64,000 nucleotides of DNA, from contig JAFMAI010000005.1 in NCBI GenBank assembly GCA_029785085.1, positions 1-64,000 of the forward strand, in the 5' to 3' direction. Positions 7,224 to 63,051 of this stretch are shown here, piece by piece. The position numbers and the translations under genes were made by a program. Origin of the DNA: Nitrososphaerota archaeon. GTDB lineage: Archaea; Thermoproteota; Nitrososphaeria; Nitrososphaerales; Gagatemarchaeaceae. The first letter of the stretch is position 1. Every line of letters begins with the position of its first letter. Under the pieces are notes generated by a model. The model ran no database searches. It saw only the letters and a program-made list of their open reading frames with translations, and was not told where the DNA came from.

Positions 7224-7241
7224 GCCGGGCTACTCGATAGA

Positions 7242-9104: not shown

Positions 9105-9323
9105 CTTGGCGTAGCCCGGCGGCCCAGCAGATGATAATCATATTGGTGAATCGACTACCTCCTGCCCTACTTCTGGATGGCTGATTGCGCTTTTGGGAGA
9201 TATGTTGATGCAAGTACGAACGTTCCCGAAGTCGCGCCGCCGACCGGTATTTACGTTTCACGACTCACGTTTCAGGACTCGCGCGTGCGCGGCCACTGGT
9301 GTCAGAAACGCGGATTTTGGGAG

Positions 9324-10394
9324 TCATTCCATTTCCAAGACGGTTTTGACATCGTCTTCTCCCTTGGGGACGTAGGCTGACTCCGCCTCCGCCAGAGGTA
9401 TATGGTTGGTCAATATCCCTTCGAGGAAACCATTCCATTTCCTCCTGATTTTAACCAAGTCAGATGCTCCCTGCCGGAAGTATGAGATGTTGGCGTTGAC
9501 AGAACCGAAGTAGACGCGGTTCCCCAGTACTAGATTAGTGAACACCTTCCCCGCATCTTCTGTCTCGGCCTGCGATTTGTAAATCCCTATGAATGAGACC
9601 ACGCCATTGGTACCGCAGAGATTCTGAGCCTCCAGGGCCACCGACGTAGAACCAGTCGCTTCAAAGACTAGGTCGAACTTGTCCTCCATGGACGACAATG
9701 GCCTGGCCTGGACATCGACGTAGGTCGCACCAGTGGAAGAGGCCAACCTTGCCTTGGGGGTGTCTGCGGGCTTCCTGGCAACGGTGGTCACAGCCAGCCC
9801 CATCTGCCGTAAGAGCGCAGTAGCCAGGAGTCCGACTGGCCCGGACCCCAGTACTAGCGCTGTACTCGGCTTCCACTTCATCCGCGCATTCTGAATGCGG
9901 AAGGCCTGCTCGATTCCCTTCTCCACTATTGTAAGCGGTTCGAGGAGAACACCCACCTCCGATAGGGACTCAGGGAGCTTGACGACGAATCGTGAATCGC
10001 TGACTGTCAACTCGCTTGCGAACCCATGGAGGCCCTTGATTCCATGCTCTTTGTAGTGCCCTGTGAGACACATGTCGGACTCCCCGTTTCTGCAGTTGAG
10101 ACAGTTCTCCAGACAGCCTCTCCGTACCGTGGGAACCACCAAGTCCCCTTTCTTGAAACCCTTGCAGCCTGGGCCAATGCTTTCTACTCTGGACAGTGAC
10201 TCGTGGCCAAGGATCAGGTATGGGGACCCCGGTGGGGCCTCCCCATAGAACCCGTTTACGATATCCATGTCGGTGCCGCAGATTCCAACTTTCAGGACCT
10301 TGAGGAGAAGCTGTCGAGGTTTCGGGGTAGGCTCCGGGACTTCTTTCAGCGAAACCGAACCCGCAGTCCCTGGCGTAACAGTTATCGCTTTCAT
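9324..10394 (-). CDS. gdh: Glucose 1-dehydrogenase (zinc-dependent MDR family)
   Basis: 356 residues of the archaeal glucose dehydrogenase type. Catalytic zinc ligands are in GICGTD and GHES, the structural zinc lobe is CLENCLNCRNGESDMC, and the Rossmann motif is GSGPVGLLAT. It oxidises glucose (and perhaps galactose) to the gluconolactone with NAD(P)+, the first step of the archaeal Entner-Doudoroff route. It lies 6 bases downstream of the aldehyde dehydrogenase gene on the same strand, so the two form an operon. Gluconate dehydratase, KDG aldolase and glycerate kinase are all within 6 kb, which makes the assignment firm. Confidence 0.9.
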   Translation of the reverse strand: MKAITVTPGTAGSVSLKEVPEPTPKPRQLLLKVLKVGICGTDMDIVNGFYGEAPPGSPYLILGHESLSRVESIGPGCKGFKKGDLVVPTVRRGCLENCLNCRNGESDMCLTGHYKEHGIKGLHGFASELTVSDSRFVVKLPESLSEVGVLLEPLTIVEKGIEQAFRIQNARMKWKPSTALVLGSGPVGLLATALLRQMGLAVTTVARKPADTPKARLASSTGATYVDVQARPLSSMEDKFDLVFEATGSTSVALEAQNLCGTNGVVSFIGIYKSQAETEDAGKVFTNLVLGNRVYFGSVNANISYFRQGASDLVKIRRKWNGFLEGILTNHIPLAEAESAYVPKGEDDVKTVLEME

Positions 10395-33545: not shown

Positions 33546-36416
33546 GTGGTGCAGGAACAGAATGCTTTCCAGGCGCTGTCGCCTCCTCTCCTTGCAGCCT
33601 TGAAGGAGCGGGGCTTCGATTCCCCAACAGACCCTCAGGAGAGGTTACTCCCCATTATCAGCGAAGGGAAGAACGCCCTTCTCATGGCCCCTACCGGGAC
33701 AGGGAAGACTGAAGCAGCTCTGCTCCCGATCTTGGACGCGATCATTCGGGAGGGCGAATATAGGGAGAAAGGCACCAAGTTGCTGTACATCACGCCGCTG
33801 AGGGCCCTCAACAGGGATATGCTCGACCGGATGCAGTGGTGGTGCAAACGTTTCGACATCAGGCTCGGCGTGAGGCACGGGGACAGCAGCCAGGCAGAGA
33901 GGACCAATCTGAGCCTCGCCCCTCCTGACATACTCATCACCACCCCCGAAACCCTTCAGATCCTCCTCGTAGGAAGAAGAATCAGACAGAACCTGGCGAA
34001 GTTGAGGTGGGTTGTGGTGGACGAGGTTCACGAACTCTCGGAAGACAAACGCGGGGCCCAACTGAGCGTAGGTCTCGAGAGGCTGAGGGACGTGGCAGAA
34101 AAGGAGTTCCAGGTCATCGGACTGTCGGCCACGGTCGGCTCCCCGGAGAAAATCGCTCAGTTTCTAGTCGGGTCAGGGAGACGATGCGAAGTGGTGCGGG
34201 TCCCCGTAGAGAAGAGCTTGTCGTTGAGAGTGGAAGCGCCAAGGGCAACGGGAGACGACAGGATCCTCGCTGATGCAATCTACTCCTACCCCGAAGTCGC
34301 GGCGAGGCTCAGGACGGTAAGAGAGCTGGTTGAGAAGTACCGGTCCGTCCTCGTCTTCACAAACACCAGGTCGGAAGCAGAAGCCCTGTCGAGTCGTTTC
34401 AGAGTGTGGGACCCCAAGTTCGCTATAGCCGTCCACCACAGCTCTCTGTCCAAGGCTACCCGGGAGGCAGTCGAAAGAGGTCTCAAGGAGGGGAAGCTCC
34501 TGGGGGTCATCTGCACGAGCAGTCTCGAACTCGGGATAGACATAGGGTTCCTGGAGTACGTGGTCCAGTACAACTCACCGAGACAGGTAACCAGGCTGAT
34601 CCAGAGGGTAGGACGCAGCGGGCACAAGGTGGGCGAAGTCTCCAACGGGCTGGTAATCACCCAGGATTCTGACGACACGCTCGAAGCTGCTGTTCTCTGC
34701 AGGAAGGCAGTGATGGGCGAGCTAGAGCCTCTCGAGCCTATCTTCAACCCCTACGACGTCGCAATCCACCAGGTCTCTGGGCTTCTGATCGAGCAACCCA
34801 ATTGGAACTTCGACGATTTGGTGGCGCTCTTTAGGAGGAGCTATGCTTATGCAGAACTCGACAGGGAGAGGCTGAAGAAGACCCTCACGTACATGAGAGA
34901 GCGCTATCCCCGCCTGGCCTACTACAGCGAATCTGACGGCAAGGTGTTTCGGGCCAGGGACGTCAAGCCACTCTTCCAGTATTATTTCGATAACCTTTCG
35001 ATGATCCCCGACGAAAAGCAGTACTTGGTCATAGAGGGAGGGACATTCGTCGGCACCCTGGACGAGGCGTTCGTTTCAGAGTACGGGGAGGTCGGGGTCA
35101 AGTTCGTGGAAGCAGGGAGATGCTGGAAGATAGAACAGATCTATGGCAACAAGGTATACGTCAAATCAGAGGACGACCCTACAGGTGCCGTCCCCCACTG
35201 GGTGGGTGACGAGATACCCGTCCCGAGGGAGGTAGCGGCTGAGGTGGGGGCCCTACGTAGGAGATATGCCGAGGCGCTGGAGATGACGAAGGATGATGAG
35301 TACCTCGATGAGCTCATCATGACGTACCCGGTGCCGAAGGACACCATCAGGGAGGCGCTGAAGGAGGTCGCGGAGCAGCATGAGGCGAAGCTCCCCATAC
35401 CTTCTGAGAGGCTGGTCACCGTCGAGAAGTGGGACAAGTATGTTGTCATACAAGCAGCCTTCGGGCACAGGGTGAACAGGCTGCTCGCCCGGGTGATTGG
35501 ACACCTCATATCAGAGCAGATAGGCCAGTCGGTGGCCGTCCACCAGGACCCCTATAGGATAGTGATCGAGGCCGAGACAACCCCCGCTGCCGTCTTCTCA
35601 GTGATCGGGGAGCTCCACAAGCTCGACCTGAAGGCTACGACGGAAAAGGCCGTGGAAAGGAGTGGCATCTTCAAGCGTCGGCTCATCCACGCAGGCAAGA
35701 AGTGCGGCGCCATTGCCAAGGACGCAGATTATGGCAGCGTCTCCATTTCCGGGATAATCGAGGCTCTCCGGGACACCCCGGTGTATGAAGAAGCAATGAG
35801 CATGATATTCCACGACGACTTCGACATCTCCGGCGCGACGGACGTGGTGGAGAAGATTAACGCCGGAGCCATAGACGTGAAGCTGGTGGAATATGGAGGG
35901 CTCACCCCCATCGCCAGAATCGGAGTGGAAGAGATCAGCAGGAGAGGCGAGATAGTCTCGCCGGAGCGGCTCAGGGCGCTCCTCAAGCAGTCTACCAGAG
36001 CCAGAATCAACGAGACATTCGTCGTCGCGGTTTGCACCAGCTGCTGGAACTTCCTGGAGCTGAGGAAAGTCGCCGACCTCGACGCCCTCGATGCCTGCCC
36101 CGCGTGTGGGAAGCAGGCGCTAGGGCTCTCGACCGACTCCTACGAGAACGTCTTCTCGCTGGCCATGAAGGCGAGAAGCAGGGCCGCACTGACCGGAGCC
36201 AAGCTGAAGCTTGTGGAGATGCTCAAGAAGTCCTCTGAGCTCAGGAGGGAATACGGCCACGCCGCAGATGTGCTCATGGCCGGCAGAGGGATCAGGCTGG
36301 CAGAGGCCAGCGCGCTTGCTGCGAAGATGAGGAAGGAAGGGACAGACGTCGTAGAACTCGTCATCGAAGGGGAGAGGGAAGCACTGCGCAGGCGCTATTT
36401 CTTCGCCGCTTCCTGA
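33546..36416 (+). CDS. Lhr-type superfamily 2 DNA helicase (first of two)
   Basis: About 956 residues from the GTG at 33546. The frame is open back to 33219, but that part overlaps the divergent regulator gene and is not helicase-like. Motifs: Q-motif region GFDSPTDPQ, Walker A APTGTGKTEA, DEVH box VVDEVHEL, SAT in LSATVG, and motif VI LIQRVGRSGHKVG. A C-terminal zinc-ribbon-like pair (CTSC ... CPAC, near residue 868) follows the Lhr-specific winged-helix and beta domains. Lhr enzymes translocate 3' to 5' on single-stranded DNA and act in repair. Its end overlaps the convergent Nse3-like gene by 22 bases. Confidence 0.88.
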   Translation: MVQEQNAFQALSPPLLAALKERGFDSPTDPQERLLPIISEGKNALLMAPTGTGKTEAALLPILDAIIREGEYREKGTKLLYITPLRALNRDMLDRMQWWCKRFDIRLGVRHGDSSQAERTNLSLAPPDILITTPETLQILLVGRRIRQNLAKLRWVVVDEVHELSEDKRGAQLSVGLERLRDVAEKEFQVIGLSATVGSPEKIAQFLVGSGRRCEVVRVPVEKSLSLRVEAPRATGDDRILADAIYSYPEVAARLRTVRELVEKYRSVLVFTNTRSEAEALSSRFRVWDPKFAIAVHHSSLSKATREAVERGLKEGKLLGVICTSSLELGIDIGFLEYVVQYNSPRQVTRLIQRVGRSGHKVGEVSNGLVITQDSDDTLEAAVLCRKAVMGELEPLEPIFNPYDVAIHQVSGLLIEQPNWNFDDLVALFRRSYAYAELDRERLKKTLTYMRERYPRLAYYSESDGKVFRARDVKPLFQYYFDNLSMIPDEKQYLVIEGGTFVGTLDEAFVSEYGEVGVKFVEAGRCWKIEQIYGNKVYVKSEDDPTGAVPHWVGDEIPVPREVAAEVGALRRRYAEALEMTKDDEYLDELIMTYPVPKDTIREALKEVAEQHEAKLPIPSERLVTVEKWDKYVVIQAAFGHRVNRLLARVIGHLISEQIGQSVAVHQDPYRIVIEAETTPAAVFSVIGELHKLDLKATTEKAVERSGIFKRRLIHAGKKCGAIAKDADYGSVSISGIIEALRDTPVYEEAMSMIFHDDFDISGATDVVEKINAGAIDVKLVEYGGLTPIARIGVEEISRRGEIVSPERLRALLKQSTRARINETFVVAVCTSCWNFLELRKVADLDALDACPACGKQALGLSTDSYENVFSLAMKARSRAALTGAKLKLVEMLKKSSELRREYGHAADVLMAGRGIRLAEASALAAKMRKEGTDVVELVIEGEREALRRRYFFAAS

Positions 36417-36958
36417 GCTCGCGAGAGTATCAGCGTCATCAGGGTCTTCTCGTCCACTTCCGCCCGAGTCCTCCACCCTATGTGCATCATGGTCCTCTCG
36501 TCCTGCTCAAGGTAACCGCGTTTCACGTACCGGTCTAGCGAGTAGTCGACCCTCCATCTGGGGAACTTCTCCCTGAGAAATTGCTCGACCTCGCGCCTGG
36601 CGGCTCTGCCGGTCTTGGAGTTGACAAAGGCTATGGTGGCTGCGAGGACGGCCAAGTCGTCTATCCTGATCCCGGCCGTCTCCGCTTCGGTCACCGTGGG
36701 CGGATCCTTGAACCTCAGGAGGAAGCGGGAAGAGTCATCAGTCCCGTCTATCCCTTTGACCTCGAACACTTCGAGGCCCATGGGCGCCATGTCTTCGGAG
36801 AGTACTTCGATTATCTTGCGGTAGTCCCTCCCTAGGTGGCGTTTCATCTCCCACCCCTTGACCCCAGGGTTCCGCCCCCGCTGGAGAACCAATACTTGGA
36901 AAGCCCGCCTGACTTTCCTCTCGAGCAGCGCCCTGTCTGCGTTGTCTGACTCCGTCAA
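36395..36958 (-). CDS. Nse3/MAGE-like winged-helix protein (SMC-complex kite subunit)
   Basis: 187 residues, soluble. The N-terminal half (LERKVRRAFQVLVLQRGRNP, GWEMKRHLGRDYRKIIEVLSEDM, GLEVFEVKG) follows the pattern of the first winged helix of MAGE/Nse3 proteins. The second half (IDDLAVLAATIAFVNSKTGR, VEQFLREKF, LDRYVKRGYLEQ) follows the second winged helix and ends with MMHIGWRTRAEVDEKTLMTLI, which parallels the conserved Trp-Gly-x-Arg-Ala-x-x-Glu segment of eukaryotic MAGE domains. This is my reading by eye. The TTG start overlaps the Nse4-like stop by 4 bases, and the trio with the SMC ATPase is one operon. Confidence 0.65.
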   Translation of the reverse strand: MTESDNADRALLERKVRRAFQVLVLQRGRNPGVKGWEMKRHLGRDYRKIIEVLSEDMAPMGLEVFEVKGIDGTDDSSRFLLRFKDPPTVTEAETAGIRIDDLAVLAATIAFVNSKTGRAARREVEQFLREKFPRWRVDYSLDRYVKRGYLEQDERTMMHIGWRTRAEVDEKTLMTLILSRAQEAAKK

Positions 36959-37713
36959 CTCTCACCTGTGATTGATATTGCGACCGACTTCGGAATTCCC
37001 TTGGTCTTTTCGGTGAGGCCCATGGTCCATATTCTCCCAGTGAGTGGCTCGGTCTTCAGTAGAGCCCTCCCCTCGCTTATGAGGAAAGCGAGTAGGTATG
37101 CCCTTCTCACCTTGGTCTCGAAGCTTTCGCCCTCTATGAACTGGCGATAGTCGACCCAGTCTCCGTTGGACTTGGCCAGCAGCTCGTCATGTAGTTGCGT
37201 AAGCCCGACCTCGAACTGCTCCTTGGTGAATACCCCCAGGCTGACCAGGTCTGTGTACTCGGCGGTCCCGGGCCTGACGCCATAACTCCCGAACTGGTCC
37301 TTGAACCTCTCTGAAATCGGGACGAGCTCGCGCCAGTAGATGAAGGCCTTCTCCAGCCCCCTGGGGGACAGCTGGTCCACCTGGGCGATTGGATGCCAGC
37401 TCTTGACAAACGACTCCGTGAGGGACTCTTTGGACAGTAGCTTCACTTTGAGCTGAATCAGCAGAGGGTCGATGAAGAGGGCAGAAGCCCTGGACTTCAG
37501 CCACTGGTCCTGCAGCTTCACTATCTGCGCCAGCTCGAGCATCGCCTCCGAGTCCACGAGGAGTTCATCCAAGAGCTTGAGCTCCGGGAGCCTCTTCTTC
37601 AGTAGGAGTATCTTTTCCCTTATGTCCACGTCGAAGGGGTTGGCGCTGCTTGTCTCGACGTCTCGACATAGCTCAATCACCCTGAGATAGTCATCAAGCC
37701 TGGTCTGCTCCAT
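36955..37713 (-). CDS. Nse4-like kleisin candidate
   Basis: 252 residues, mostly helical. An N-terminal region with LLVDSEAMLELAQIVKLQDQ resembles the kleisin/Nse4 segment that binds the SMC neck. The C-terminal region (SFETKVRRAYLLAFLISEGRALL, residues 197-219, then GRIWTMGL) resembles the Nse4 C-terminal winged helix that contacts the SMC head. Gene order (ATPase, kleisin, kite) and one-base spacing from the ATPase gene support a complex. The similarity was judged by eye, so a different helical partner is possible. Confidence 0.6.
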   Translation of the reverse strand: MEQTRLDDYLRVIELCRDVETSSANPFDVDIREKILLLKKRLPELKLLDELLVDSEAMLELAQIVKLQDQWLKSRASALFIDPLLIQLKVKLLSKESLTESFVKSWHPIAQVDQLSPRGLEKAFIYWRELVPISERFKDQFGSYGVRPGTAEYTDLVSLGVFTKEQFEVGLTQLHDELLAKSNGDWVDYRQFIEGESFETKVRRAYLLAFLISEGRALLKTEPLTGRIWTMGLTEKTKGIPKSVAISITGES

Positions 37714-37714
37714 G

Positions 37715-39721
37715 TTATTTCAGCTCTTTGACCTCCGACGAGCCGTGGACCGCCTGGACAGTAATGACGTGTGCGCTTCTGTCGAACACGGTCAGGATCG
37801 ATGGGGTAATCACGATGTACTGCGACGCCTCCCTCTGTTTCATCTGCGAGAGAATCATCTTGAACATCGCTTCCCTGTTCTTGGGGTCCATGTGTATGTC
37901 GAACTCATCCATTGCTCTCAGGGGAGAGACTATCCTCGCCTGCAGAGACAGGATGAAAGCCATCAGAGCCACCGACCTCTCCCCACCGCTCTGGGTGAAC
38001 GGGTCGAGGGTTGTAGGAGCGCCGCCTCTGAACCCGACATACAGGTCGAGGCCGGCGTCTTCTATCGTATCCGCCTGCTCGAGCTTGACGAAGCCGCTGG
38101 CGTCCGCTGCCGACAGGACTACCTGGTAGGGCGGGTCGACAGCCTCGACGAGGTCTTCCATCGCCTTCCGCCAGACGCCCTTGCGTGAATCCAGCTCGGA
38201 GAGCATGAACTTCTTGTTATCTTGCAATTTGGCGAGCTTCACTTTCAACTCCTCGATGTTGCCCGAATAGTCGTTGTAGATTTTTTCAGCGTCGTCTGGA
38301 ACATCCTGCATCCTTTGGATGTGCGCTGACACGAGCTTCAGCTCTTCTGAGACCTCGTACGGCTGGCGAGCGGTCTCCATCCTGGACCCCGCCCGTTCCA
38401 GGTCCAGGGCCATTTTGTCGAGCTCGGCCTTGTACTCCCGGGCCGTCCTCTCGAGGTCGCGGAGGTCTGACTCGGTGACCCTGATACGATACGAAAGGAC
38501 CTCCGCCTTGACCTTGAAGGAGATGTGGCTGTCGGTTGTGCTCCTGATCACGTCCTCCATCTTGGTAATCTCAGGCTGCAGAGAAGAGACTTCCCTGTCT
38601 AACTCCGCCTTGCGGCGCCCGGCGTCCTCTTCGGCTGACGAGCTCTTTTGTTCTATGTAGACAGCGAGCTCTTTGAGCCTCTTAGCGTTCTTGTCGCCTC
38701 CCTTGGACAGGAGTTCGTCAATGGTGCTTGACAGTCCTAGGAGGTCTTCTTTTATCGAGCGATAGGCGTTGCGCGCTGACTCGTCCTTCGCCTTCTCCGA
38801 CTCGGCTCTAACCAGGGCGTAGTAGAGCTTCCGCAGCTCCACCTGCTTGTCCATGAGGGTCTGATGGGTGTGCTCTGCGTCTGATGATACCTCCGCCTGC
38901 TGTGACTTCAGGTCGTCCAAGGCCCTGGACTTCGACGAAATCTTCTCCTCAGCCACCTGCAGAGACTTGCTGAGCCTTCCTTCGGTGCTCCAGAGGAGCT
39001 CCTTCGACAGGAGGTCCCTGTGCTCGATGAGCCTCCGTTTCTCCTGGTAGCGGTCGTAAATCTGCTTCCAGTACTCAAGGGCCTGGTTAGCGTTGTCCAT
39101 GAGCTGGAGGAGAGAGCTCTCTTCGCCTACCAGCCCGCTCAGCTCCTGCTCGGCCGATATGATCCTTTGTCTGTACTCTAAGAATCCGACGGCCTCCTCC
39201 ACCATCCTCAGCCGTTCCTGGGGCGTGACGGCGCCCAGTTCCTCTATCATACCCTGGTGCATGATGATGAGCAGGTTGTCAGGATTGATTCCGAACTCAC
39301 GGAGGAGCCTCACAACCTCGCTCTTGTCAATCTCCTTGTAGTCGGCCTCGAACCAGTACGACCCGTCGCGCCTCAGATATCTGCTGAGCATGAAGGTGTC
39401 AGACTTTGAGTATGGTATTGGTCGCAGCCCAGCCTTCTGGGAGTTGTCGAAGACAAGCGAGACACGGGCGATCTCCTTCCCGCGTCTGATGAGGTCCGAA
39501 AGCTTCCTTGACCTTTCGGTGTACGCCTGTCCGAAGGCCACGGAGATAGCCAGGAGAACGGACGACTTTCCGGCTCCGTTGGGGCCGACGATGAGGTTCA
39601 GCCCCTCACGGAGGGGGATTCTTGCGTACTCGTAACTCATGAAGTTCTCTAGTATGATTTCTTTTACTGTAGTAAGATGAGACGGCCTCTCCTGGGAGGC
39701 CTCCCTGACGCCTTGGGACAA
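37715..39721 (-). CDS. Compact SMC/Rad50-like ATPase, Smc5/6-like head
   Basis: 668 residues, about half the length of ordinary SMC proteins. Head: IILENFMSYEYARIPL, Walker A GPNGAGKS (46-53), HQGMIEELGAVTPQERLRMVEEAVG; signature QSGGERS (577-583); Walker B region PLRAMDEFDIHMDPKNRE with MDEFD at 604-608, then YIVITPS. The DEFD-x-x-MD-x-x-NR and TP-S pattern is close to Smc6. Between about 190 and 530 the chain is coiled coil with no visible glycine-rich hinge and no zinc-hook CxxC. It should bind and organise DNA with its two partners. It diverges from the second Lhr gene. Confidence 0.85.
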   Translation of the reverse strand: MSQGVREASQERPSHLTTVKEIILENFMSYEYARIPLREGLNLIVGPNGAGKSSVLLAISVAFGQAYTERSRKLSDLIRRGKEIARVSLVFDNSQKAGLRPIPYSKSDTFMLSRYLRRDGSYWFEADYKEIDKSEVVRLLREFGINPDNLLIIMHQGMIEELGAVTPQERLRMVEEAVGFLEYRQRIISAEQELSGLVGEESSLLQLMDNANQALEYWKQIYDRYQEKRRLIEHRDLLSKELLWSTEGRLSKSLQVAEEKISSKSRALDDLKSQQAEVSSDAEHTHQTLMDKQVELRKLYYALVRAESEKAKDESARNAYRSIKEDLLGLSSTIDELLSKGGDKNAKRLKELAVYIEQKSSSAEEDAGRRKAELDREVSSLQPEITKMEDVIRSTTDSHISFKVKAEVLSYRIRVTESDLRDLERTAREYKAELDKMALDLERAGSRMETARQPYEVSEELKLVSAHIQRMQDVPDDAEKIYNDYSGNIEELKVKLAKLQDNKKFMLSELDSRKGVWRKAMEDLVEAVDPPYQVVLSAADASGFVKLEQADTIEDAGLDLYVGFRGGAPTTLDPFTQSGGERSVALMAFILSLQARIVSPLRAMDEFDIHMDPKNREAMFKMILSQMKQREASQYIVITPSILTVFDRSAHVITVQAVHGSSEVKELK

Positions 39722-39838
39722 GCTTCGAGCCTCCGCGGGCTTGTCGCGCTTTTAGCCATTACCCCTTGGGAGGGCACTATTCAGTTTCACCGACCCCCCT
39801 CCGGTGACACCTTAAATCGGCGAGCACCGCTCTCAGAA

Positions 39839-42685
39839 GTGTTGCCTGCTCAGTCTGCGTTCGAAGCGCTCGCTCCGGCCGTGCGGGGGTTTCTAGCAGA
39901 CACAGGGATGGTTGAACCCACGCCTCCCCAGGTCGAGGCATGGCCCCTCGTCTCGCGGGGAGCAGACGTACTCGTGGTTGCACCCACCGGGTCTGGGAAG
40001 ACCGAAGCCGCAATTCTACCGCTGTTGAGTAGGCTGGTGTCAGAGGGGCACGGGGATGGGATATCTTTGCTGTACATCACCCCGATGCGAGCCCTGAACC
40101 GCGACATGCAGAGGCGACTGCAGGCATGGTGCACCAGACTCGGGCTCACGGTGGACATCAGGCATGGAGACACCCCCCAATCCCAGAGGGCGAAGCAGTC
40201 AAGCCACCCCCCAGACGTCATGGTCACGACCCCAGAGACGCTTCAGGCAATACTCCCAGGGCGAAGGATGCGAGACAACCTGTCACCGCTGAAGGCTGTG
40301 GTGGTGGATGAGCTCCACAACCTAGTAGAAAGCAAACGAGGGGTGCAGCTCTGTGTAGGACTGGAGCGGCTGAGGAAGGTTGCCCCGAAATTCCAGCTGG
40401 TCGCGCTCTCTGCCACCATCGGGACACCGGCTGTGGCTGCCAAGTTTCTCTTCGGGGAGAGGGAAGTGAAGATTGTGAAAGCAGATGCACCCAAGGAGTT
40501 TGCCTACGCCATAGAGTATCCTGTGCCCGATCCAGCGAGCCAATCTGCGGCCAAGGAGACGTACTCTGCACCTGACTTGGCGGCCAGACTCGCCAGAATC
40601 AATTCCCTGATCGACGGCCATGTGTCCACCCTCATCTTCGTCAATAGCAGGACGCTCGCCGAGATGCTGGGGGAGAAGCTGGCGAGGCTCAGGAAAGACG
40701 TTGGAGTCCACCATGGTTCCCTCCCCAGAGAAGAAAGAGAGCGGGTTGAACAGGCATTCAAAGCCGGAGAGCTGAAGGCCCTGGTCTGCACCAGCACCCT
40801 GGAACTGGGCATCGACGTAGGGTCGGTTGATCTGGTGGTCCAATACATGTCACCAAGGCAGGTGACCAGTCTCGTGCAGCGCGTCGGCAGGAGCGGCCAC
40901 CGGCTCGGCAAGGTCTCCAAGGGCGTCCTAGTTACCGTATCAGCGGATGACATTCTGGAATCGTCAGCCAGCATACGTTCTGCCGCCCAGAGGAAGATCG
41001 AGCCCACCAGGCCATATTCGAATTCCTTGGACGTCTTGGCCCACCAAGTTGCCGGCTATCTCATGGACTTCGAGACGATGGAAGCGGACACGATGCTCAC
41101 CGAGGTGAGGAAAGCGGAACCGTTCGAAAGCCTCTCCGATGACTCCTTCCTCCGGACCGTGAGCTTTCTGGCCGAGCTCCGGAAGCTCAGGTTCGACGGG
41201 AAGACGCTGTCCAGGACCAGGCTTACGCGGGAGTACTACTACGAGAACCTGTCAATGATCCCCGACGAGACGAGGTACCTAGTCGTGGACGTGTCGACCA
41301 ACCAGACAGTAGGGATACTGGGTGAAGAGTTCGTCCTTCTGAAGGCGAGGGTCGGCATTCATTTCGTAATCAAGGGACGAGTATGGCAGGTAGAGCAGAT
41401 AGCTGATGACAGGAAGATCTACGTGACCCCAGTGGAAGATCCACTCGCAGCCGTCCCCGGCTGGGATGGCGAGATGCTCCCAATCCCCTACGAACTCGCG
41501 AAAGATACAGGAAGGTTGAGGAGAGAAGTCTCAGAAGCGCTGGATGCCGGTCAAGACGCGGTCGAGACGGTCGAAGTGCACATCCCCGGGGACGCGGCCG
41601 CCCGCGCGCTCGTGGTGGACCAGATCGCGGAGCAGAAGAAGATGGGAGCGCCAGTCCCCTCGGACAGGCTGGTCCTCTTCGAAGGGTTCGGCCGGTATCT
41701 TGTAGTTCACCTCTGCTTCGGAGAGTCGATCAATAGGACGTTCGCCTACGTATTCGAAGAGATCCTGTCCAAGAAGGGGCTGGTGAGGGTCTGGTGGCTC
41801 GACGGATACAGGCTGCTGATGGAACTCACAGTGGAGACGGAGGAACTAGACCTGAAAGCCATCGCCAGAGGGCTGATGGGCATGGCACCGGATGAGTTCG
41901 AGAGGACCTACGCGGTAGCCGCCCAGAGGAACTTCCCGTTCCCAGCGAGGGTCAAATTCGTTGCGGAGAGGTTCGGGGCATTGAGACGAGGCAAGCTCAT
42001 CGCCCACCCCAACCTCTGCTCGCTCCCCACCCGCTTCGAAAAGACCCCGATCTTCGAAGAAGCCCTGCAGGAGACTGGGAGGGACCTCATCGACATGGAG
42101 CACTCGAAGGAGATCCTCGTGGCGGTTGCCGATGGCGAGGTTTCGGTAGAGACGTTCATGGCTGGCGAGAGGCCAACCCCCATCGCATACAGTCTCCTCT
42201 ACAGGTACCTGGAGGTGCCGGAGGCCGTAGCTCCAGATTCGCTTGGAAAGTCATCCTACCAGAGGATGAAGACGACCATATTCGGCGCCAGCGTGAGCCT
42301 CCTTTGTGTCAAGTGCGGCGGGGACCAGGGAGAGACGACGGTAGGCGAAGTCCCGGATGAGCCCAGATGTAGAAACTGCGGTTCGGGATTGCTGGCCCCC
42401 TGCTACTGGGGGACAGCCAAGCTGTCTGAACTGGTAAAGAGGAGAGAGGCCAAGGCGCAGCTGAACGAGGAGGAGCGGTCGGAGCTCTCACGAGCCAGGC
42501 GGGGAGCAGACCTCGTCTTGTCTTACGGCAAGAAGGCGGTCGTTGCCCAGACCGTTTATGGTGTTGGCCCCCAGACCGCATCTAGGATTCTGGCCGAGAT
42601 GCACGATGATGAGGAAGCATTCTACAGGGACCTTCTGGAAGCGAAGATCCGCTTCGTCACGACCCGCCAGTACTGGGGGAGCTGA
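39839..42685 (+). CDS. Lhr-type superfamily 2 DNA helicase (second of two)
   Basis: About 948 residues from the GTG at 39839. The frame is open back to 39677, but a TATA-like box (CTTAAAT, 39809-39815) lies 27 bases before the GTG. Motifs: TPPQVEAW, Walker A APTGSGKTEA, VVDELHNL, LSATIG and LVQRVGRSGHRLG. A C-terminal four-cysteine zinc ribbon (CVKC ... CRNC, about 825-850) and a helical tail (GVGPQTASRILAEM, helix-hairpin-helix-like) differ from the first copy. A helicase role in DNA repair is expected. It is followed by a protein of unknown function and a metallophosphoesterase on the same strand. Confidence 0.88.
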   Translation: MLPAQSAFEALAPAVRGFLADTGMVEPTPPQVEAWPLVSRGADVLVVAPTGSGKTEAAILPLLSRLVSEGHGDGISLLYITPMRALNRDMQRRLQAWCTRLGLTVDIRHGDTPQSQRAKQSSHPPDVMVTTPETLQAILPGRRMRDNLSPLKAVVVDELHNLVESKRGVQLCVGLERLRKVAPKFQLVALSATIGTPAVAAKFLFGEREVKIVKADAPKEFAYAIEYPVPDPASQSAAKETYSAPDLAARLARINSLIDGHVSTLIFVNSRTLAEMLGEKLARLRKDVGVHHGSLPREERERVEQAFKAGELKALVCTSTLELGIDVGSVDLVVQYMSPRQVTSLVQRVGRSGHRLGKVSKGVLVTVSADDILESSASIRSAAQRKIEPTRPYSNSLDVLAHQVAGYLMDFETMEADTMLTEVRKAEPFESLSDDSFLRTVSFLAELRKLRFDGKTLSRTRLTREYYYENLSMIPDETRYLVVDVSTNQTVGILGEEFVLLKARVGIHFVIKGRVWQVEQIADDRKIYVTPVEDPLAAVPGWDGEMLPIPYELAKDTGRLRREVSEALDAGQDAVETVEVHIPGDAAARALVVDQIAEQKKMGAPVPSDRLVLFEGFGRYLVVHLCFGESINRTFAYVFEEILSKKGLVRVWWLDGYRLLMELTVETEELDLKAIARGLMGMAPDEFERTYAVAAQRNFPFPARVKFVAERFGALRRGKLIAHPNLCSLPTRFEKTPIFEEALQETGRDLIDMEHSKEILVAVADGEVSVETFMAGERPTPIAYSLLYRYLEVPEAVAPDSLGKSSYQRMKTTIFGASVSLLCVKCGGDQGETTVGEVPDEPRCRNCGSGLLAPCYWGTAKLSELVKRREAKAQLNEEERSELSRARRGADLVLSYGKKAVVAQTVYGVGPQTASRILAEMHDDEEAFYRDLLEAKIRFVTTRQYWGS

Positions 42686-42721
42686 AAGCCAAATAACAGG
42701 ATTCTGGAGGGTCCAGACAGA

Positions 42722-43405
42722 GTGGTACTAGCTGGAAAAGTATTCCTCGTGAGGGAGAACTATGAAATCGACACCCTCGCGGAGAAGCTGAAGGCGTTCA
42801 GGATTGAGACGGAGACGAGCGTAGAAGGGAAGGAGTTCAAGCTCGTATCGGAGATTACTGATCTGAGCGTGGGCAAAGGGTCCCTCGACGGGAAGTTCTC
42901 GTTCGATTCAGTCTTCGTCGTCCCTCACCGGGGGGAGTCGGTCCCCGTCCCGAGAACCTACGAGGCGCCTTTCACGTTCAGCATGCACAAAGACAGAATG
43001 TTCCTTGCTGTCTACGACAAGAAGACCAGGGCGAACAATATAGCCAATGAGATGAGCAAAGCAGTCTTCATGAGCCTGGGTCAGGTGGTCGAGGCAAGGA
43101 TAGATCCAGAGACGCTGCGGAAGTTTCATGAGGCAAACTTCGACGATACCAAAGTGATATTCTACTCCGACGTCGATCTGCCGAATATCACCAAGCTGTC
43201 CCTCTACGGGGCAGAACTAGGCAACACCAGCCTCTACACCGACTACCTTGCCCACGGGAAGCTGTGGTACATCGTCTTCAAGAGCAGAGAATATGGCTAT
43301 GTCTTCGGGCTCACGAGGAACTGCATTCTGACCGGGTTCAGCAAGATGGAACTTTCGGAGTTCAAGAACTTCGTGGGAAACCAGGTCCTCCCGCTGATAG
43401 CGTAG
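42722..43405 (+). CDS. Protein of unknown function between Lhr helicase and phosphoesterase
   Basis: 227 residues, GTG start, with no signal peptide or membrane helix. I do not recognise a family. The N-terminal part is beta-rich (FLVRENYEIDTLAEKL, FSFDSVFVVPHRGESVPV) and the middle reads EAPFTFSMHKDRMFLAVYDKKTRANNIANEMSK, then NFDDTKVIFYSDVDLPNITKLSLYGAEL. It sits 36 bases after the second helicase and one base before the phosphoesterase, so it is probably part of the same repair-type operon and may be a DNA- or complex-binding accessory protein. Confidence 0.6.
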   Translation: MVLAGKVFLVRENYEIDTLAEKLKAFRIETETSVEGKEFKLVSEITDLSVGKGSLDGKFSFDSVFVVPHRGESVPVPRTYEAPFTFSMHKDRMFLAVYDKKTRANNIANEMSKAVFMSLGQVVEARIDPETLRKFHEANFDDTKVIFYSDVDLPNITKLSLYGAELGNTSLYTDYLAHGKLWYIVFKSREYGYVFGLTRNCILTGFSKMELSEFKNFVGNQVLPLIA

Positions 43406-43406
43406 C

Positions 43407-44165
43407 TTGCTGAAGATAGTCCCCGGCGAGGCAGCCCTGGTGTTCTCCACAGCGGAGAACACGACCTTGCTAGTGTCAGACCTGCACCTCGGCCTGGAGA
43501 AAGAGATGGCGAAGAAGGGTTTTCGCCTCCCCGCTTATTCTGTGAAGATGGTGGAAAGGGTGAAACGCACGGCCGAGGGGCATGGGGCGACAAGGCTAGT
43601 GGTGCTCGGTGACGTCAAGCACACGGTAGGCAAAGTAGAAGATATTGACTGGGGCGTCGTCCCGTGGTTCTTCGACACCATGCTAGACATATTCGAGGTC
43701 GTGGAAGTGGTCCCCGGGAATCACGATGGGAACATAAGGACCGTCCTGCCTCCGCGAGTGCGACTGGACAAATCACAAGGGACAGTGCTTGGTCATGGGA
43801 GGACACGAATCGGCGTGGCCCACGGGCACGCCTGGCCCTCGCAGGAGGCAATAGCTACCAGGGAACTCGTGATAGGTCACTCTCACTTCACCTATGAGAT
43901 GCGCGACGCCCTGGGTGCTCGGACGAGGGAATCAGTGTGGGTTACTGCAGATTATGACGTCGCCAAGTTGATGGATGGAGCAGGGTACCCCTCGAAGGCC
44001 AAGGGGAAAGGCAGACTGACCGTCATGCCTCCATTCAATAGGCTGGTTGGCGGGCAGCCGATAAACAGGAGTAGCTCGTTCGAGTTCGGGCCGGTTCTAT
44101 CCTCGAGGTCTATAAGCCTCGAAGAGGCCGACATATTCCTGACAGACGGGACCCGGGTGACCTAG
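43407..44165 (+). CDS. Metallophosphoesterase (COG1407-type, Lhr-associated)
   Basis: 252 residues. The calcineurin-like motifs are complete: SDLHLG, LGDVKH, GNHDGN, GHGRTRIGVAHGHAWP and GHSH, together giving a two-metal site. Members of this group are often encoded next to Lhr or DNA ligase genes and are nuclease or phosphodiesterase candidates for DNA-end processing. It follows the unknown 227-residue protein with a 1-base gap and is convergent with thioredoxin. Confidence 0.85.
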   Translation: MLKIVPGEAALVFSTAENTTLLVSDLHLGLEKEMAKKGFRLPAYSVKMVERVKRTAEGHGATRLVVLGDVKHTVGKVEDIDWGVVPWFFDTMLDIFEVVEVVPGNHDGNIRTVLPPRVRLDKSQGTVLGHGRTRIGVAHGHAWPSQEAIATRELVIGHSHFTYEMRDALGARTRESVWVTADYDVAKLMDGAGYPSKAKGKGRLTVMPPFNRLVGGQPINRSSSFEFGPVLSSRSISLEEADIFLTDGTRVT

Positions 44166-45153: not shown

Positions 45154-45591
45154 CTATCTGCCTTCCACGAACTCGCGTATCGCCTTGAGCGTCTGGGGGT
45201 TCTCGCGGAGATATTCGGCGAGCCTCTCTAGTCGCTTCAGGGTGCTAGAGTGCACGTGGTGCTCTATTCCTTCCGTGTCGACGTAGGCCGTCTGCTCATC
45301 CACCCCGAGCATGGAGATGAAACCAGAGATGACCTGATGCCTTTTGATGACAGACCTTGCCACTCTCTCGCCCGCTGGGGTCAGGCGCATCCCCCGGTAC
45401 TTCTCGTGCTCGAGGAAGCCCTTCCGGGTGAGGTTCCTCACCATGCTGGACACCGTCGGTGGCTTCACCCCCAGTCGCTCAGAGACGTCGGCGGCGCTGA
45501 CGTACCCCTTCTCAGAATCGAGGTTGTAAATCGCTTCTAGATAGTCCTCGAGTCGTGAAATGTCGCGTTTTGATTGTAGCACCGCGGCCAT
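45154..45591 (-). CDS. DtxR/MntR-family metal-dependent repressor
   Basis: 145 residues. An N-terminal winged helix (YVSAADVSERLGVKPPTVSSMVRNLTRKGFLEHEKYRGMRLT) and a metal-binding domain with ERVARSVIKRHQVISGFISMLGVDEQTAYVDTEGIEHHVH. Without an SH3 domain, it resembles MntR more than DtxR. It is divergent from an NRAMP transporter; the gap contains an operator-like palindrome, so it most likely represses Mn2+/Fe2+ uptake. It is not the same protein as the regulator at 18.5 kb. Confidence 0.88.
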   Translation of the reverse strand: MAAVLQSKRDISRLEDYLEAIYNLDSEKGYVSAADVSERLGVKPPTVSSMVRNLTRKGFLEHEKYRGMRLTPAGERVARSVIKRHQVISGFISMLGVDEQTAYVDTEGIEHHVHSSTLKRLERLAEYLRENPQTLKAIREFVEGR

Positions 45592-45683
45592 GCCTGCATG
45601 GGCGAGGCCAGCGTTCCAGATAAAAGGATTCTCGAGCTTGGGTGAGTTTCTGGCTTGGACACTTGTGAGATAGATACAGTCTT

Positions 45684-45699
45684 GTTAGAGATATCTAAC
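45684..45699. promoter_or_regulatory. DtxR/MntR-type operator between regulator and NRAMP genes
   Basis: GTTAGA-GATA-TCTAAC has 6-base inverted arms. It shares the GTTAG...CTAAC ends with the palindrome at 18885-18901 and lies 33 bases before the NRAMP start at 45732, over the expected TATA region. Confidence 0.65.
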
Positions 45700-45731
45700 T
45701 TTAATTAGCCACTGCGGCGCTGGCATCAAGG

Positions 45732-46973
45732 ATGAAATGGAGTTCGGTCCGGGAGTTCACCGCTTACCTCGGGCCCGCGCTAATCGTGAGCATGGCATAC
45801 ATGGATCCGGGGAACTACGGGACTGCCATTCAGAGCGGCGCACTCTTCCAGAACAAGCTTGTCTGGGCAGTCTGGTTGGCCAGTATCATGGCGATGGAGC
45901 TTCAGTACCTCTCGGGGAAGCTGGGGATTGCCACCGGGCAGAGCCTGACGGAGCTCCTTAGGAGCTCTCTCCGCTCAAGGTACTACAGAGTCACATACTG
46001 GCTGGCGGCCGAGGCAGCTGCTGCCGCGACCGACCTGGCCGAGTATTTGGGCACGGTTCTGGCCCTCAACATACTCTTCGGGATACCTTTGCTCTACGCA
46101 GCGCTGCTAGGGGCATTGGACGTCTTGCTCATCCTAGCTTTTGCTTCGCGAAGGTTCAGGGTGATAGAGTATATGTTCATGGTCTTCGTTTCGGTGATAA
46201 GCGTTGGTTTCCTCTATGAGATATACGTCTTCGGCCCCAACTTTGCCGACATTGTCAGGCACACCTTCGTCCCCACGCTGAATCGAGAGAACATCCCCTT
46301 TGTGGTCGGGATTGTCGGCGCCACTGTCATGCCTCACGCGTTGTTCCTGCACTCGCATCTCACCAAAGATAAGGTCAAGGGCAACACCCTCGAAGAAAGG
46401 CGGAGGGTAAGGAAACTCCACCTGATAGAATCAGTCTTGACATTGACTGTGGCAGCGCTAGTGAACGTTGCTATACTAGTCGTCGCCGGGAGGGCTCTCT
46501 GCCCCACATATGGCTGCGTCGGTAATATGAACATCAACGCGCTGACGGTCACCGGTGCGGCCAAGGTGATGGACGGACTCTATGGGCCGCTGGCTGGTGT
46601 CGTCTTCGGAGTCACGCTCCTGGCGTCCGGAATCGCATCGTCCACCACAGGTACCCTCGCAGGACAGGCGATCATGGAAGGGATGCTCGGAACCAGGGTT
46701 AACGTCTATGCGCGCAGGGTAGTCACCAGGGTCATCAATGTGTTCCCCACGGTCGTGGCGATACTCGTAGGCCTGAGCCCACTTTCGCTCCTGGTGTACA
46801 GCCAGGTGGTACTAAGCATAATGATCCCGCTCCCCATGGTTCCGCTCATCTACTACACCGCTAAGAGGGACCTGATGGGCGAGTTCGTCAACAGAAGATC
46901 CACTACGCTCGTAGCCCTAGTCATAGGCGGGACCATCGTGGCCCTGAACGCCTATCTGCTGGTCACTCTCTAG
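45732..46973 (+). CDS. NRAMP-family divalent metal transporter (MntH-like)
   Basis: 413 residues with about eleven membrane helices. It carries the two NRAMP hallmarks: MDPGNYGT in helix 1 (metal-binding Asp and Asn) and VMPHALFLHSH in helix 6 (metal-binding Met and the proton-coupling histidine). It imports Mn2+ or Fe2+ with protons. The divergent DtxR-family gene and the palindrome between them indicate metal-dependent repression. Its end overlaps the convergent phosphoribosyltransferase gene by 11 bases. Confidence 0.92.
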   Translation: MKWSSVREFTAYLGPALIVSMAYMDPGNYGTAIQSGALFQNKLVWAVWLASIMAMELQYLSGKLGIATGQSLTELLRSSLRSRYYRVTYWLAAEAAAAATDLAEYLGTVLALNILFGIPLLYAALLGALDVLLILAFASRRFRVIEYMFMVFVSVISVGFLYEIYVFGPNFADIVRHTFVPTLNRENIPFVVGIVGATVMPHALFLHSHLTKDKVKGNTLEERRRVRKLHLIESVLTLTVAALVNVAILVVAGRALCPTYGCVGNMNINALTVTGAAKVMDGLYGPLAGVVFGVTLLASGIASSTTGTLAGQAIMEGMLGTRVNVYARRVVTRVINVFPTVVAILVGLSPLSLLVYSQVVLSIMIPLPMVPLIYYTAKRDLMGEFVNRRSTTLVALVIGGTIVALNAYLLVTL

Positions 46974-47520: not shown

Positions 47521-47611
47521 TGGGCCGGGGCGGATTCGAACCACCGACCCTGGCGCGCTGTGCGTTTCGCCGTGTAAGGGCGACGTCCTAACCATGCTAG
47601 ACGACCGGCCC
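47521..47611 (-). tRNA. tRNA-Val(TAC) with an intron at 44/45
   Basis: Acceptor GGGCCGG/CCGGCCC with discriminator A, D arm GTCT/GGAC, anticodon stem TCGCC/GGCGA and loop CTTACAC, giving anticodon TAC. The variable region is 16 bases too long. Removing 47550-47565 leaves the normal 5-base AGGTC. The junction has a good bulge-helix-bulge: helix GGCG/CGCC with bulges AAA and AGG. T arm GGTGG/CCGCC. Spliced length is 75 bases. Confidence 0.9.
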
Positions 47612-49227: not shown

Positions 49228-49460
49228 AAATGTGAGCGGCGGTAGTTCCCTCGGAGTTCACCATCGCTCTCCGACCCCTTCTCGCCGAGACGGGAATCCC
49301 CCACGTAGACGGGGCAGCGTGGCCACGTTGCCATAGGGCTGCTCCCTCCCGGACCTCGCCCGGTTCGGCAATCAAGAGTCAGGCCCTCTCCTTCGAGAGG
49401 GCTGCCCCTCATGACCGCCCACCCCGGCGTGAGTTCGTCTTCCCAGCCCAACGCGGGTGA
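49228..49460 (-). ncRNA. Signal recognition particle RNA (7S RNA)
   Basis: On the minus strand the helix 8 core is clear: GAACCGGGCGAGG, then GTCCGGGAGGGAGCAGCC with a GGGA tetraloop, closed by TTGCC/GGCAA. Next to it is helix 6, CCCTCTC-GAAG-GAGAGGG, with a GNAR tetraloop, the SRP19 site. The arms of helix 5 flank both. A T-run (about 49225-49230) marks the 3' end. The 5' end in the Alu domain is approximate. Confidence 0.87.
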
Positions 49461-49543
49461 CGAGGAAGATGGTTTTACCCGAGGGTTGCTGGCCGCTGCG
49501 TAAAGCCGGTTTCAGCTTAGCGAGGACGGCTATCCCCCGGACC

Positions 49544-50500
49544 CTACCCACCGCCGAAGGCGCTTGGCTTGGCTCGGCTTTTAACGTGTTCCTCTACGGC
49601 CGCTCTCATCCTGCACACGTTGCAAAGGCCGCTGGACGAGGTCCTCCCGCACTGTGTGCAGGGAGCAGAGTGTTTCTCGCTGTTGTCTGCGTAGTGAGAG
49701 ATTACGTCGAGGCTGCTGTGGAGTAGGACATTCTTGAAGCCGGGATGGTTCGCCTCCATCATGTTGAGGTAGTCCCTGACCTCGCTCCTGAGCCCTTCGT
49801 GCATGTAGGGGCAGCTCACGCTCTGGAGGGGGACCCCTGCCTGGTGGGCGTAGAGGGCGACCTCTTCCTCGTAGAGTTCCATGAAGGGCTTGACCCTCCT
49901 CAAAGGGAACGAGCGGTCGGTGTGACTTGGGTCGAGCCATCCGAGTCGAGCGACGTCACCGTGCATAAGATTCATCATGAACGTCTGGACAAAGTCATCG
50001 AGGTTATGGGCTGTCGCCACGACTGATGCACCGGCCCTCTGCGCCGCCTCGTCTATGGCTCTACGCCTGAAGACCCCGCAGAAGCTGCAGGAGGACGCCT
50101 CGCGTTCCTCCTCCCAGTCAAGAGCCTCGTCGAGGGAGAACCCGAACATCTCTTTGTATGATACCACCAAGTGTTCGACCCCCAGCTCGCCCGCGAGCGA
50201 ACGGGCATGAGACAGCGCCTCGTCTCTATATCCAGCTACCCCTTCGTCCACCGAGACAGCCACAATGCTGTTCCCCCTGGGAGCGTAGAGCCCGACGAGC
50301 ACCTTGAGTAACGAAAGGCTGTCTTTTCCCCCGGAGACTGCGATTGCCACCCTCTCATGCGGCCCTATCATGCTGTACTTCGAGATGGTTTTGCGGGTCT
50401 TTTCCACAATCGAGTCATCGAAGCACGAGGCGCAGAGAGCTTGACCGGAGTAGCGTCGTGTGTAGAAGGGCGTCCCTCCGCAGGCCGAGCACCGGTCCAT
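49544..50500 (-). CDS. tRNA 2-thiolation ATPase (TtuA/Ncs6 family)
   Basis: 318 residues. An N-terminal zinc finger (CSACGG ... CASC), PP-loop SGGKDSLSLL, the CSFC pair plus a later cysteine (SCPYMHEG) that hold the iron-sulfur cluster, and a second zinc finger at the C-terminus (CTQCGRTSSSGLCNVC). It activates uridine (position 34 or 54) in tRNA for sulfur transfer. It is encoded beside SRP RNA and tRNA-Ser. The gene starts at an ATG with the AT-rich gap to the protease gene upstream. Confidence 0.9.
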   Translation of the reverse strand: MDRCSACGGTPFYTRRYSGQALCASCFDDSIVEKTRKTISKYSMIGPHERVAIAVSGGKDSLSLLKVLVGLYAPRGNSIVAVSVDEGVAGYRDEALSHARSLAGELGVEHLVVSYKEMFGFSLDEALDWEEEREASSCSFCGVFRRRAIDEAAQRAGASVVATAHNLDDFVQTFMMNLMHGDVARLGWLDPSHTDRSFPLRRVKPFMELYEEEVALYAHQAGVPLQSVSCPYMHEGLRSEVRDYLNMMEANHPGFKNVLLHSSLDVISHYADNSEKHSAPCTQCGRTSSSGLCNVCRMRAAVEEHVKSRAKPSAFGGG

Positions 50501-62920: not shown

Positions 62921-63051
62921 GGGGGTATAGCCCAGCCAGGCAGGGCGACAGGCTCCAGTGACACCAATGGCTGACACGGAAACGTGGATGACTTGACATT
63001 GGAGCTGCCTAAGAAACCTGTAGACCGTCGGTTCAAATCCGACTACCCCCA
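62921..63051 (+). tRNA. tRNA-Trp(CCA) with a long intron
   Basis: Acceptor GGGGGTA/TACCCCC with discriminator A, D arm GCCC/GGGC, anticodon stem ACAGG/CCTGT, anticodon CCA (62955-62957), T arm GTCGG/CCGAC. The first exon ends at 62958 (position 37); helix CTCC can pair with GGAG (63001-63004) with 5' bulge AGT. The 3' boundary is unclear: the canonical junction at 63015/63016 removes 57 bases but leaves an oversized 3' bulge; an alternative removes the interval to about 63006 plus a further 9 bases within CCTAAGAAACCT. The intron holds CTGA and GGATGA motifs. Confidence 0.9.

Follow-up and report, generated by a model that had tools for sequence, protein, structure and literature searches.

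Gene organization of the island

The DNA analysed (the window) is a 64,000-nt stretch from a Nitrososphaerota archaeon (GCA_029785085.1), corresponding to positions 1 to 64,000 of the forward strand of contig JAFMAI010000005.1, within which the island described here occupies positions 33546–44165. The island opens with Lhr1, a forward-strand gene for an Lhr-type SF2 helicase (33546..36416, GTG start). This gene is convergent with a reverse-strand operon, which we call the trio, that encodes a kite subunit (36395..36958), an Nse4-like kleisin (36955..37713, ATG start) and a short SMC5/6-related SMC of 668 residues (37715..39721). The TTG start of the kite gene overlaps the stop codon of the kleisin gene, the two sharing four bases (TTGA), and the 3′ ends of Lhr1 and the kite gene overlap by 22 bases. 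The convergent Lhr1/kite junction was found again in many families, and the arrangement is therefore far beyond chance.

Three further genes follow on the forward strand: Lhr2, a second Lhr-type helicase (39839..42685); D227, an unannotated family represented here by a 227-residue protein (42722..43405); and a COG1407/TIGR00024-like metallophosphoesterase (43407..44165), which begins one base past D227. The start of Lhr2 is uncertain: its frame is open from an ATG at 39677, GTG at 39839 is most likely the true start, and position 39776, which was used in part of the searches, is an in-frame point only. All the genes named in the preliminary description of this DNA were found where it had placed them. 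It had missed the conserved D227 gene between Lhr2 and the phosphoesterase, which is the most telling partner of the trio. Base composition is even, and an Rfam scan of the window identified only an SRP RNA, a 5S RNA and two tRNAs, none of them inside the island.

The SMC, kleisin and kite subunits

In the window SMC, the Walker A, signature and Walker B motifs can be read from the sequence, and SMC_N matches it at E 4e-36. A profile of the trio SMC scored 6e-71 against Smc6, 3e-67 against Smc5 and 1e-50 against bacterial Smc, while as a control canonical SMC scored 4e-88 against bacterial Smc and matched no Smc5/6 chain at 1e-20. By this comparison of scores, as distinct from a tree with eukaryotic sequences, the trio SMC is SMC5/6-like, with Smc5 and Smc6 nearest to it. 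No PF06470 hinge was found in the window SMC; a canonical SMC from this genus does contain one. The region between the two halves of the head is low in G+P and lacks CxxC (107 sequences); there is no zinc hook. The trio-type SMC is between 570 and 701 residues long (110 sequences).

One trio-type SMC gene is present in 39 of 40 neighbourhoods and none contains two; weaker matches to the SMC superfamily also occur in neighbourhoods L156, L161 and L178. The genome rows listed each have one strong trio-SMC place, or split pieces of one. An SMC match was found in 99 of the 101 genomes sampled from the order, and nearly all of these are full-length canonical SMCs. The best reading is that the SMC5/6-type complex is a second SMC complex, present beside the canonical one.

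The kleisin profile matches an Nse4 chain at E 7e-4, and Nse4_C is detected in 17 of 24 kleisin members (best E 8e-6), the window protein falling under the Pfam cut-off; on these weak scores the kleisin is of Nse4 type. The kite profile matched no chain in the PDB, and 4 of the 25 members examined match MAGE (best E 4e-4), the window kite not among them, which weakly suggests a MAGE/Nse3-type subunit. The identification of the trio as SMC, Nse4-like and Nse3-like in the preliminary description agrees with these results, weakly so for the last. The complex resembles eukaryotic Smc5/6 (Smc5, Smc6, Nse4, Nse1/Nse3) in an SMC that scores nearest to Smc5/6, in the Nse4_C kleisin and, weakly and in some members only, in a kite that matches MAGE. 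It differs from it in having one trio-type SMC gene per cluster rather than two different SMCs, and in that no hinge was found in the archaeal SMC.

A 2025 study reportedly describes archaeal ancestors of SMC complexes together with kleisin and kite partners, and we therefore do not claim novelty for the trio itself. An SMC5/6-related SMC in archaea was reported, as regards the ATPase, by Yoshinaga and Inagaki (2021, via PMC9389158), and the trio SMC very likely belongs to the same group. The available part of the account in PMC9389158 does not mention kleisin, D227, Lhr or phosphoesterase partners, and the word kleisin is absent from the paper.

The two Lhr helicases

Both helicases contain DEAD, Helicase_C, WH_Lhr and DEAD_assoc (Domain 4), and so have the archaeal Lhr architecture of RecA1, RecA2, winged helix and Domain 4. 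Two CxxC pairs lie close to the C-terminus in all of the sequences collected (77/77 Lhr1 and 11/11 Lhr2).

The preliminary description had tied both helicases to the trio, and had proposed that this link would be undermined if the trio occurred mostly without either Lhr in related genomes. The survey shows the opposite for Lhr1, which is present in 33/33 kleisin-positive genomes among the 101 of the order, and in 0/68 trio-negative ones at E 1e-180 (setting aside G082, where the match is of Lhr2 type at 36% identity). In a sample of 300 genomes from the phylum, an Lhr1-type protein accompanies the trio SMC in 123 of 128 genomes and is missing from the other 5. A strict one-to-one tie holds within the order and fails in the phylum: the trio SMC is lacking from 51 of the 174 genomes with an Lhr1-type protein. 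The Lhr1 proteins of these genomes fall in one clade with trio-linked Lhr1, and Lhr1 therefore has an independent life as well. Lhr2 forms a separate clade, common to trio-negative genomes too, and adjoins the trio in a single family (f1). This rules out a bracket of two Lhr genes as a unit; Lhr2 is an added neighbour at family level, and its membership of the system is not supported.

D227 is predicted to have an RdgC/CENP-L fold

The structure predicted for D227 (pLDDT 92) matches E. coli RdgC with Z 13.0 over 214 of its 227 residues (rmsd 4.8), and Foldseek gives E 1e-6 for the same pair. Iml3 (Z 9.8) and human CENP-L (Z 9.4) match over about 180 residues, so that RdgC is the better structural match. 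With an earlier, shallower model (pLDDT 78), RdgC again ranked first (Z 11.1), while Foldseek alone placed Iml3 and TBP on top. D227 is thus predicted to adopt an RdgC/CENP-L fold over its whole length. A relationship to RdgC at the level of sequence was considered and dropped: profile–profile comparison with hhalign gave a probability of 0.4, indicating no similarity, and Pfam/NCBIfam identified neither RdgC (PF04381) nor TBP in any of 45 family members. Unlike RdgC, which has 303 residues, D227 has 227, is archaeal, and is linked with an SMC complex.

The link between the RdgC and Iml3 folds has already been published, according to the parts of PMC11077077 and PMC5095916 available; among the papers covered by our literature search, none connects an RdgC or CENP-L fold with the SMC complexes of archaea.

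The metallophosphoesterase

The profiles nearest to the phosphoesterase are TIGR00024 (SbcD_rel_arch) and PdeM. It scores 75 bits against TIGR00024, below the curated cut-off of 115, making it a relative rather than an equivalog. The DLH, GDxxH, GNHD and GHxH motifs are kept, and a search against the PDB gave no match. A dedicated subfamily, delimited at 125 bits (a line set after the gap was seen, between the lowest score inside, 126.7, and the highest outside, 109.1), occurs in the same 30/101 genomes of the order as D227, and the two genes often remain paired when they are away from the trio. In the rest of the phylum, 40 neighbourhoods contain no phosphoesterase gene. Its inclusion in the system by the preliminary description is therefore retained as an order-level partnership, and a role as core effector is ruled out for the phylum.

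Lhr and metallophosphoesterase pairs are described in archaea and bacteria in the part of PMC8301817 available, and the island likewise has Lhr and a COG1407/TIGR00024 phosphoesterase as neighbours. Unlike in the classical pair, the partner of the island phosphoesterase is D227; pairs of the classical kind are still found elsewhere in the same genomes (for example G035 C4 and G006 C3).

Co-occurrence and linkage

The tests of co-occurrence ignore shared ancestry. Among the 101 genomes of the order, kleisin is found in 33 and D227 in 30, all within the 33; in the genus, the trio is present in 14 of 15 genomes. In the phylum sample the trio SMC is present in 128 genomes and kleisin in 126, with both in 124. 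D227, present in 124 of the 300, occurs with the trio SMC in 112. Counting against a module, it is found in 12 genomes without the SMC, and is absent from 16 that have it. Within 10 kb, kleisin is linked to D227 in 38/110 cases, to Lhr1 in 48/110 and to either in 67/126, and D227 adjoins the SMC gene in nine further genomes. These surveys show that the conserved core of the module is SMC–kleisin–kite together with Lhr1 and D227. At 20 loci where D227 is unlinked from the trio, no common neighbour gene was found beyond close relatives.

Proposed function

We propose that the island encodes a chromosomal module for genome maintenance. At its base would be a second SMC complex, of SMC5/6 type, with D227 as a DNA-clamp partner and Lhr1 as a motor, acting beside the canonical SMC; we put the probability of this reading at roughly 0.58. 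Two SMC heads, kleisin and kites would together make a clamp, gated by ATP, in which DNA is held at junctions that have stalled or are recombining. By analogy with RdgC and CENP-L/N (Iml3-Chl4), a D227 dimer may encircle duplex DNA as a ring or horseshoe. It could mark or shield the encircled DNA, for instance by restricting the access of recombinase to it, or aid loading of the SMC clamp. Lhr1 would move 3′ to 5′, unwinding or annealing the DNA or RNA:DNA structure so held, and the phosphoesterase, where present, may trim ends or RNA. Lhr2 would be an extra neighbour in the host family.

To our knowledge the core activity of SMC5/6 is not settled, nor is its origin in prokaryotes. As a compact version made up of a single short SMC, a kleisin and a kite, with two partners inherited alongside, the archaeal complex offers a small system for asking what SMC5/6 does. 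The module hints at a genome-maintenance partnership of great age that is open to testing.

Alternative explanations

The association could reflect ancestral gene order only, old housekeeping DNA genes having been inherited and lost together with no common pathway. The association does follow clades (of the 17 families in the order sample, 8 have both the trio and Lhr1 and 9 lack both, with f4 mixed by genus), and Lhr1 exists apart from the trio SMC in the 51 phylum genomes noted above. However, linkage recurs in differing arrangements, with D227 beside SMC, beside Lhr1 (L165, L166) or beside an SMC split from kleisin; the D227–phosphoesterase pair often persists off the trio locus; and in loci labelled Methanophagales and Thermoplasmata, too, D227 adjoins SMC. 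We consider this explanation unlikely. In a chromosome-segregation or centromere-like role, D227 would mark a site or structure and the SMC complex would serve segregation or cohesion instead of repair. Such a role would suit the predicted match to CENP-L/Iml3 (Z 9 to 10), which takes in most of D227. It is made quite improbable by the better match to RdgC and by the canonical SMC already present in these organisms, and a helicase partner would seem to suit repair better.

D227 is widespread, unannotated and has the predicted fold of RdgC and CENP-L, and hence provides a lead on the origin of the inner-kinetochore DNA-binding fold. In a bolder and rather doubtful extension of the genome-maintenance reading, D227 would be an archaeal representative of the lineage from which the eukaryotic kinetochore proteins CENP-L and CENP-N descend, acting as a DNA-encircling clamp with an SMC5/6-type complex before recruitment to centromeres, and the SMC5/6-type ring, RdgC/CENP-L-fold clamp and Lhr motor would together make up an undescribed junction-maintenance machine.

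The preliminary description had suggested a repair or anti-plasmid pathway with a logic comparable to that of Wadjet. In a defence of this kind, small DNA circles of foreign origin would be sensed by the trio and destroyed by the phosphoesterase or by an Lhr. The SMC, kleisin and kite do parallel JetABC of Wadjet JetABCD (as presented in the available part of PMC10586767), the catalytic motifs of the phosphoesterase are kept, and in PADLOC the SMC weakly matches Mad3 and LmuB. Against this, PADLOC gives no JetA, JetB or JetD-type match, the operon has no Toprim nuclease JetD, and there is no defence context. The SMC is of the short SMC5/6 type and not JetC, its only match to that group being in the coil region, to JetC3 (E 5e-10), far poorer than its match to SMC5/6. 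The phosphoesterase is missing from all 40 neighbourhoods elsewhere in the phylum, the trio is carried by nearly the whole genus, unlike a patchy defence gene, GC is even, and viral contigs contain no relatives of D227. An anti-plasmid function is therefore highly improbable. The Lhr proteins also match BrxHI and SngC in PADLOC, which appears to be a helicase-wide effect.

Organization of the island

The central finding is an SMC5/6-like trio that occurs together with D227, an unannotated 227-residue protein, and the helicase Lhr1. The island extends from 33546 to 44165 and consists of Lhr1 (33546..36416, +), a kite (36395..36958, −), an Nse4-like kleisin (36955..37713, −), an SMC (37715..39721, −), a second helicase, Lhr2 (39839..42685, +, start uncertain), D227 (42722..43405, +) and a COG1407/TIGR00024-like metallophosphoesterase (43407..44165, +). 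The trio is transcribed from SMC through kleisin to kite on the minus strand, with a four-base overlap between kleisin and kite; Lhr1 and the kite meet tail-to-tail with a 22-base overlap, and a single base separates D227 from the phosphoesterase. Base composition is uniform over the region. The preliminary description listed these genes correctly, except that it overlooked D227. The source is contig 17 of an archaeal genome (908 kb, 66% complete). The closest named relative is an uncultured archaeon (L063) with an identical kleisin, and Nitrososphaerota/Thaumarchaeota assemblies rank alongside it.

Identity of the SMC trio

A profile of the trio SMC (668 residues in the window) built from 49 relatives matched Smc6 (6e-71) and Smc5 (3e-67), both ahead of the best bacterial Smc (1e-50). 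The canonical SMC encoded by a member of the window's genus served as control: it matched bacterial Smc (4e-88), and no Smc5/6 chain came up at 1e-20. This canonical SMC has a hinge domain, which Pfam did not find in the trio SMC of the window. Trio SMCs range from 570 to 701 residues (110 relatives), and in all of the 107 sequences examined, three having been dropped for want of the signature string, the region between the head halves is poor in glycine and proline and has no CxxC zinc hook. The kleisin profile matched yeast Nse4 (7e-4), and Nse4_C was matched by 17/24 kleisins, the window kleisin at E 0.16. The MAGE domain was matched by 4/25 kites; the window kite gave no MAGE match at E 1. 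On these sequence comparisons the trio appears to be SMC5/6-like, and the SMC profile, the Nse4 and Nse4_C matches and the four MAGE matches uphold the earlier guess to this effect. An SMC5/6-related group among archaeal SMCs has already been published (PMC9389158).

The trio is an addition to canonical SMC, since 99 of the 101 genomes sampled from the order have some SMC match, nearly all of them including a full-length canonical SMC. The trio SMC is the sole SMC detected in the window's own incomplete genome.

Distribution within the order

All searches within the order used one and the same set of 101 genomes. The kleisin occurs in 33 genomes. The Lhr1 orthologue search (E 1e-180) gave 34 matches, 33 of them in the same genomes as the kleisin. 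G082 was rejected as an Lhr1 carrier, its match being Lhr2-type. D227 was found in 30 genomes, all within the 33; those without it are G085, whose contig ends before the D227 position, and G017 and G029, both of family f17. Some phosphoesterase relative is present in 95/101 genomes, and the close subfamily (at least 126 bits; others at most 109) is restricted to the same 30 genomes as D227.

Lhr1 is close to the trio in 29 of the 33 trio loci compared, which comprise 32 fetched neighbourhoods and the window itself; the remaining four genomes carry it elsewhere. Lhr2 adjoins the trio in family f1 only, and Lhr2-type helicases are also present in trio-negative families. One member of the window's genus (G088; 85% complete, 0.9 Mb, 7 contigs) lacks kleisin, D227, both helicases and the phosphoesterase and keeps canonical SMC, reflecting either island loss or a gap.

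Distribution across the phylum

In 300 genomes of the phylum, the trio SMC was found in 128 and the kleisin in 126, with both in 124. D227 occurs in 124 genomes, 112 with and 12 without the SMC, and 16 SMC genomes lack it. Lhr1-type helicases (cut-off E 1e-150) occur in 174, and only five SMC genomes lack one. Fisher p values with the SMC are 9e-50 for D227 and 3e-35 for Lhr1-type, which are descriptive figures because the genomes are related. In a tree of 50 Lhr proteins, trio-linked Lhr1 and Lhr1-type helicases from trio-negative lineages form one clade (100/99), separate from Lhr2. Lhr1 thus accompanies the trio almost without exception, but the reverse does not hold: 123 SMC genomes have an Lhr1-type helicase, but 51 genomes have one without the SMC. 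Helicases of this type have been characterised as unwinding DNA/RNA in the 3′ to 5′ direction and as able to anneal strands, in a paper that distinguishes aLhr1 and aLhr2 groups (PMC8301817).

The kleisin lies within 10 kb of D227 in 38 of the 110 genomes carrying both, within 10 kb of the best Lhr1 match in 48 of the 110 with a listed place, and within 10 kb of either in 67/126. In nine further genomes D227 and the SMC gene are separated by 0.9 to 3.1 kb. In 40 neighbourhoods chosen by hand from the 126 kleisin genomes (one to four per family), D227 was near in 18, Lhr1 in 16 and the phosphoesterase in none. Of 60 named loci, which overlap with the other sample sets, 43 have Lhr1 close by and one more holds broken Lhr1 pieces; D227 adjoins the SMC in L110, L111 and L114 (labelled Methanophagales, Thermoplasmata and Thermoproteota) and is also near it in L118. 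This last locus (Methanophagales, 1832-10059) contains broken Lhr1 pieces, and a phosphoesterase gene lies immediately upstream of its three trio genes (SMC, kleisin and kite). In L103, L105, L106, L107, L112, L113, L117, L119 and L120 kleisin and kite are paired with no SMC gene detectable nearby; several of these records are labelled Methanophagales or Methanosarcinales.

Predicted fold and context of D227

No Pfam or NCBIfam family fits D227, scattered weak matches each appearing in one or two of 45 members. The AlphaFold2 model improved from pLDDT 78 with 19 relatives to pLDDT 91.9 and pTM 0.86 with 45. Foldseek with the better model placed E. coli RdgC top (E 1e-6, TM 0.58 to 0.60), yeast Iml3 next (1e-4) and TBP further down. 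A second aligner, by whose own note models lacking relatives usually reach Z 7 to 8 at best, gave RdgC Z 13.0 (214 residues, 4.8 Å), Iml3 9.8, human CENP-L 9.4 and TBP about 8.5, the last covering between a third and half of the length. Compared profile to profile, D227 and a set of 16 RdgC sequences gave no similarity. D227 is therefore predicted to have the RdgC/CENP-L fold, as a likeness of fold rather than demonstrated common descent. The link between the RdgC and Iml3 folds, the ring or horseshoe in which these proteins enclose DNA and its basic inner surface have been published (PMC11077077, PMC5095916). A bolder reading, of low probability, is that the CENP-L fold originated in an archaeal SMC5/6 partner.

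In three f43 genomes (L196-L198) a divergent D227 occurs without the trio, and the next genes code for a Cas4-like PD-(D/E)XK nuclease and for NucS, a repair endonuclease (gene names checked in L196 alone); these neighbours point to a link with DNA repair. In E. coli K-12 (L183, 1109-8001) rdgC lies no more than about 3 kb from sbcC and sbcD, whose products pair an SMC-like ATPase with a phosphoesterase, an arrangement that parallels the archaeal neighbourhood.

Functional interpretation

Most likely, the trio, D227 and Lhr1 constitute a clamp-and-motor module acting at DNA junctions, because an SMC5/6-type ATPase accompanied by kleisin and kite, a fold that in other proteins encloses duplex DNA, the helicase type and long co-inheritance all fit this reading. 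D227 would ring DNA and contact the SMC complex, and Lhr1 would work on the same substrate. The preliminary description had likened the island to the Wadjet defence system. A defence role is less likely, because the likeness to Wadjet extends to no subunit beyond the generic SMC scheme, the trio is present in 14 of the 15 genus members, and no D227 copies were found in viral sequences. What the preliminary description observed is confirmed, its interpretation in part: its association of an SMC5/6-like trio with Lhr holds; Lhr2, adjacent to the trio in f1 only, is not supported as part of the system, nor is the defence logic.

Genomic surroundings

Downstream of the island, at 45154-46973, an MntR-type metal regulator (profile match) adjoins an Nramp-like transporter (assigned by eye), a pair that keeps this position after the island in several relatives. 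An archaeal SRP RNA lies at 49240-49553, and tRNA matches at 47521-47611 (91 bases) and 62921-63051 (131 bases, a length that could accommodate an intron).
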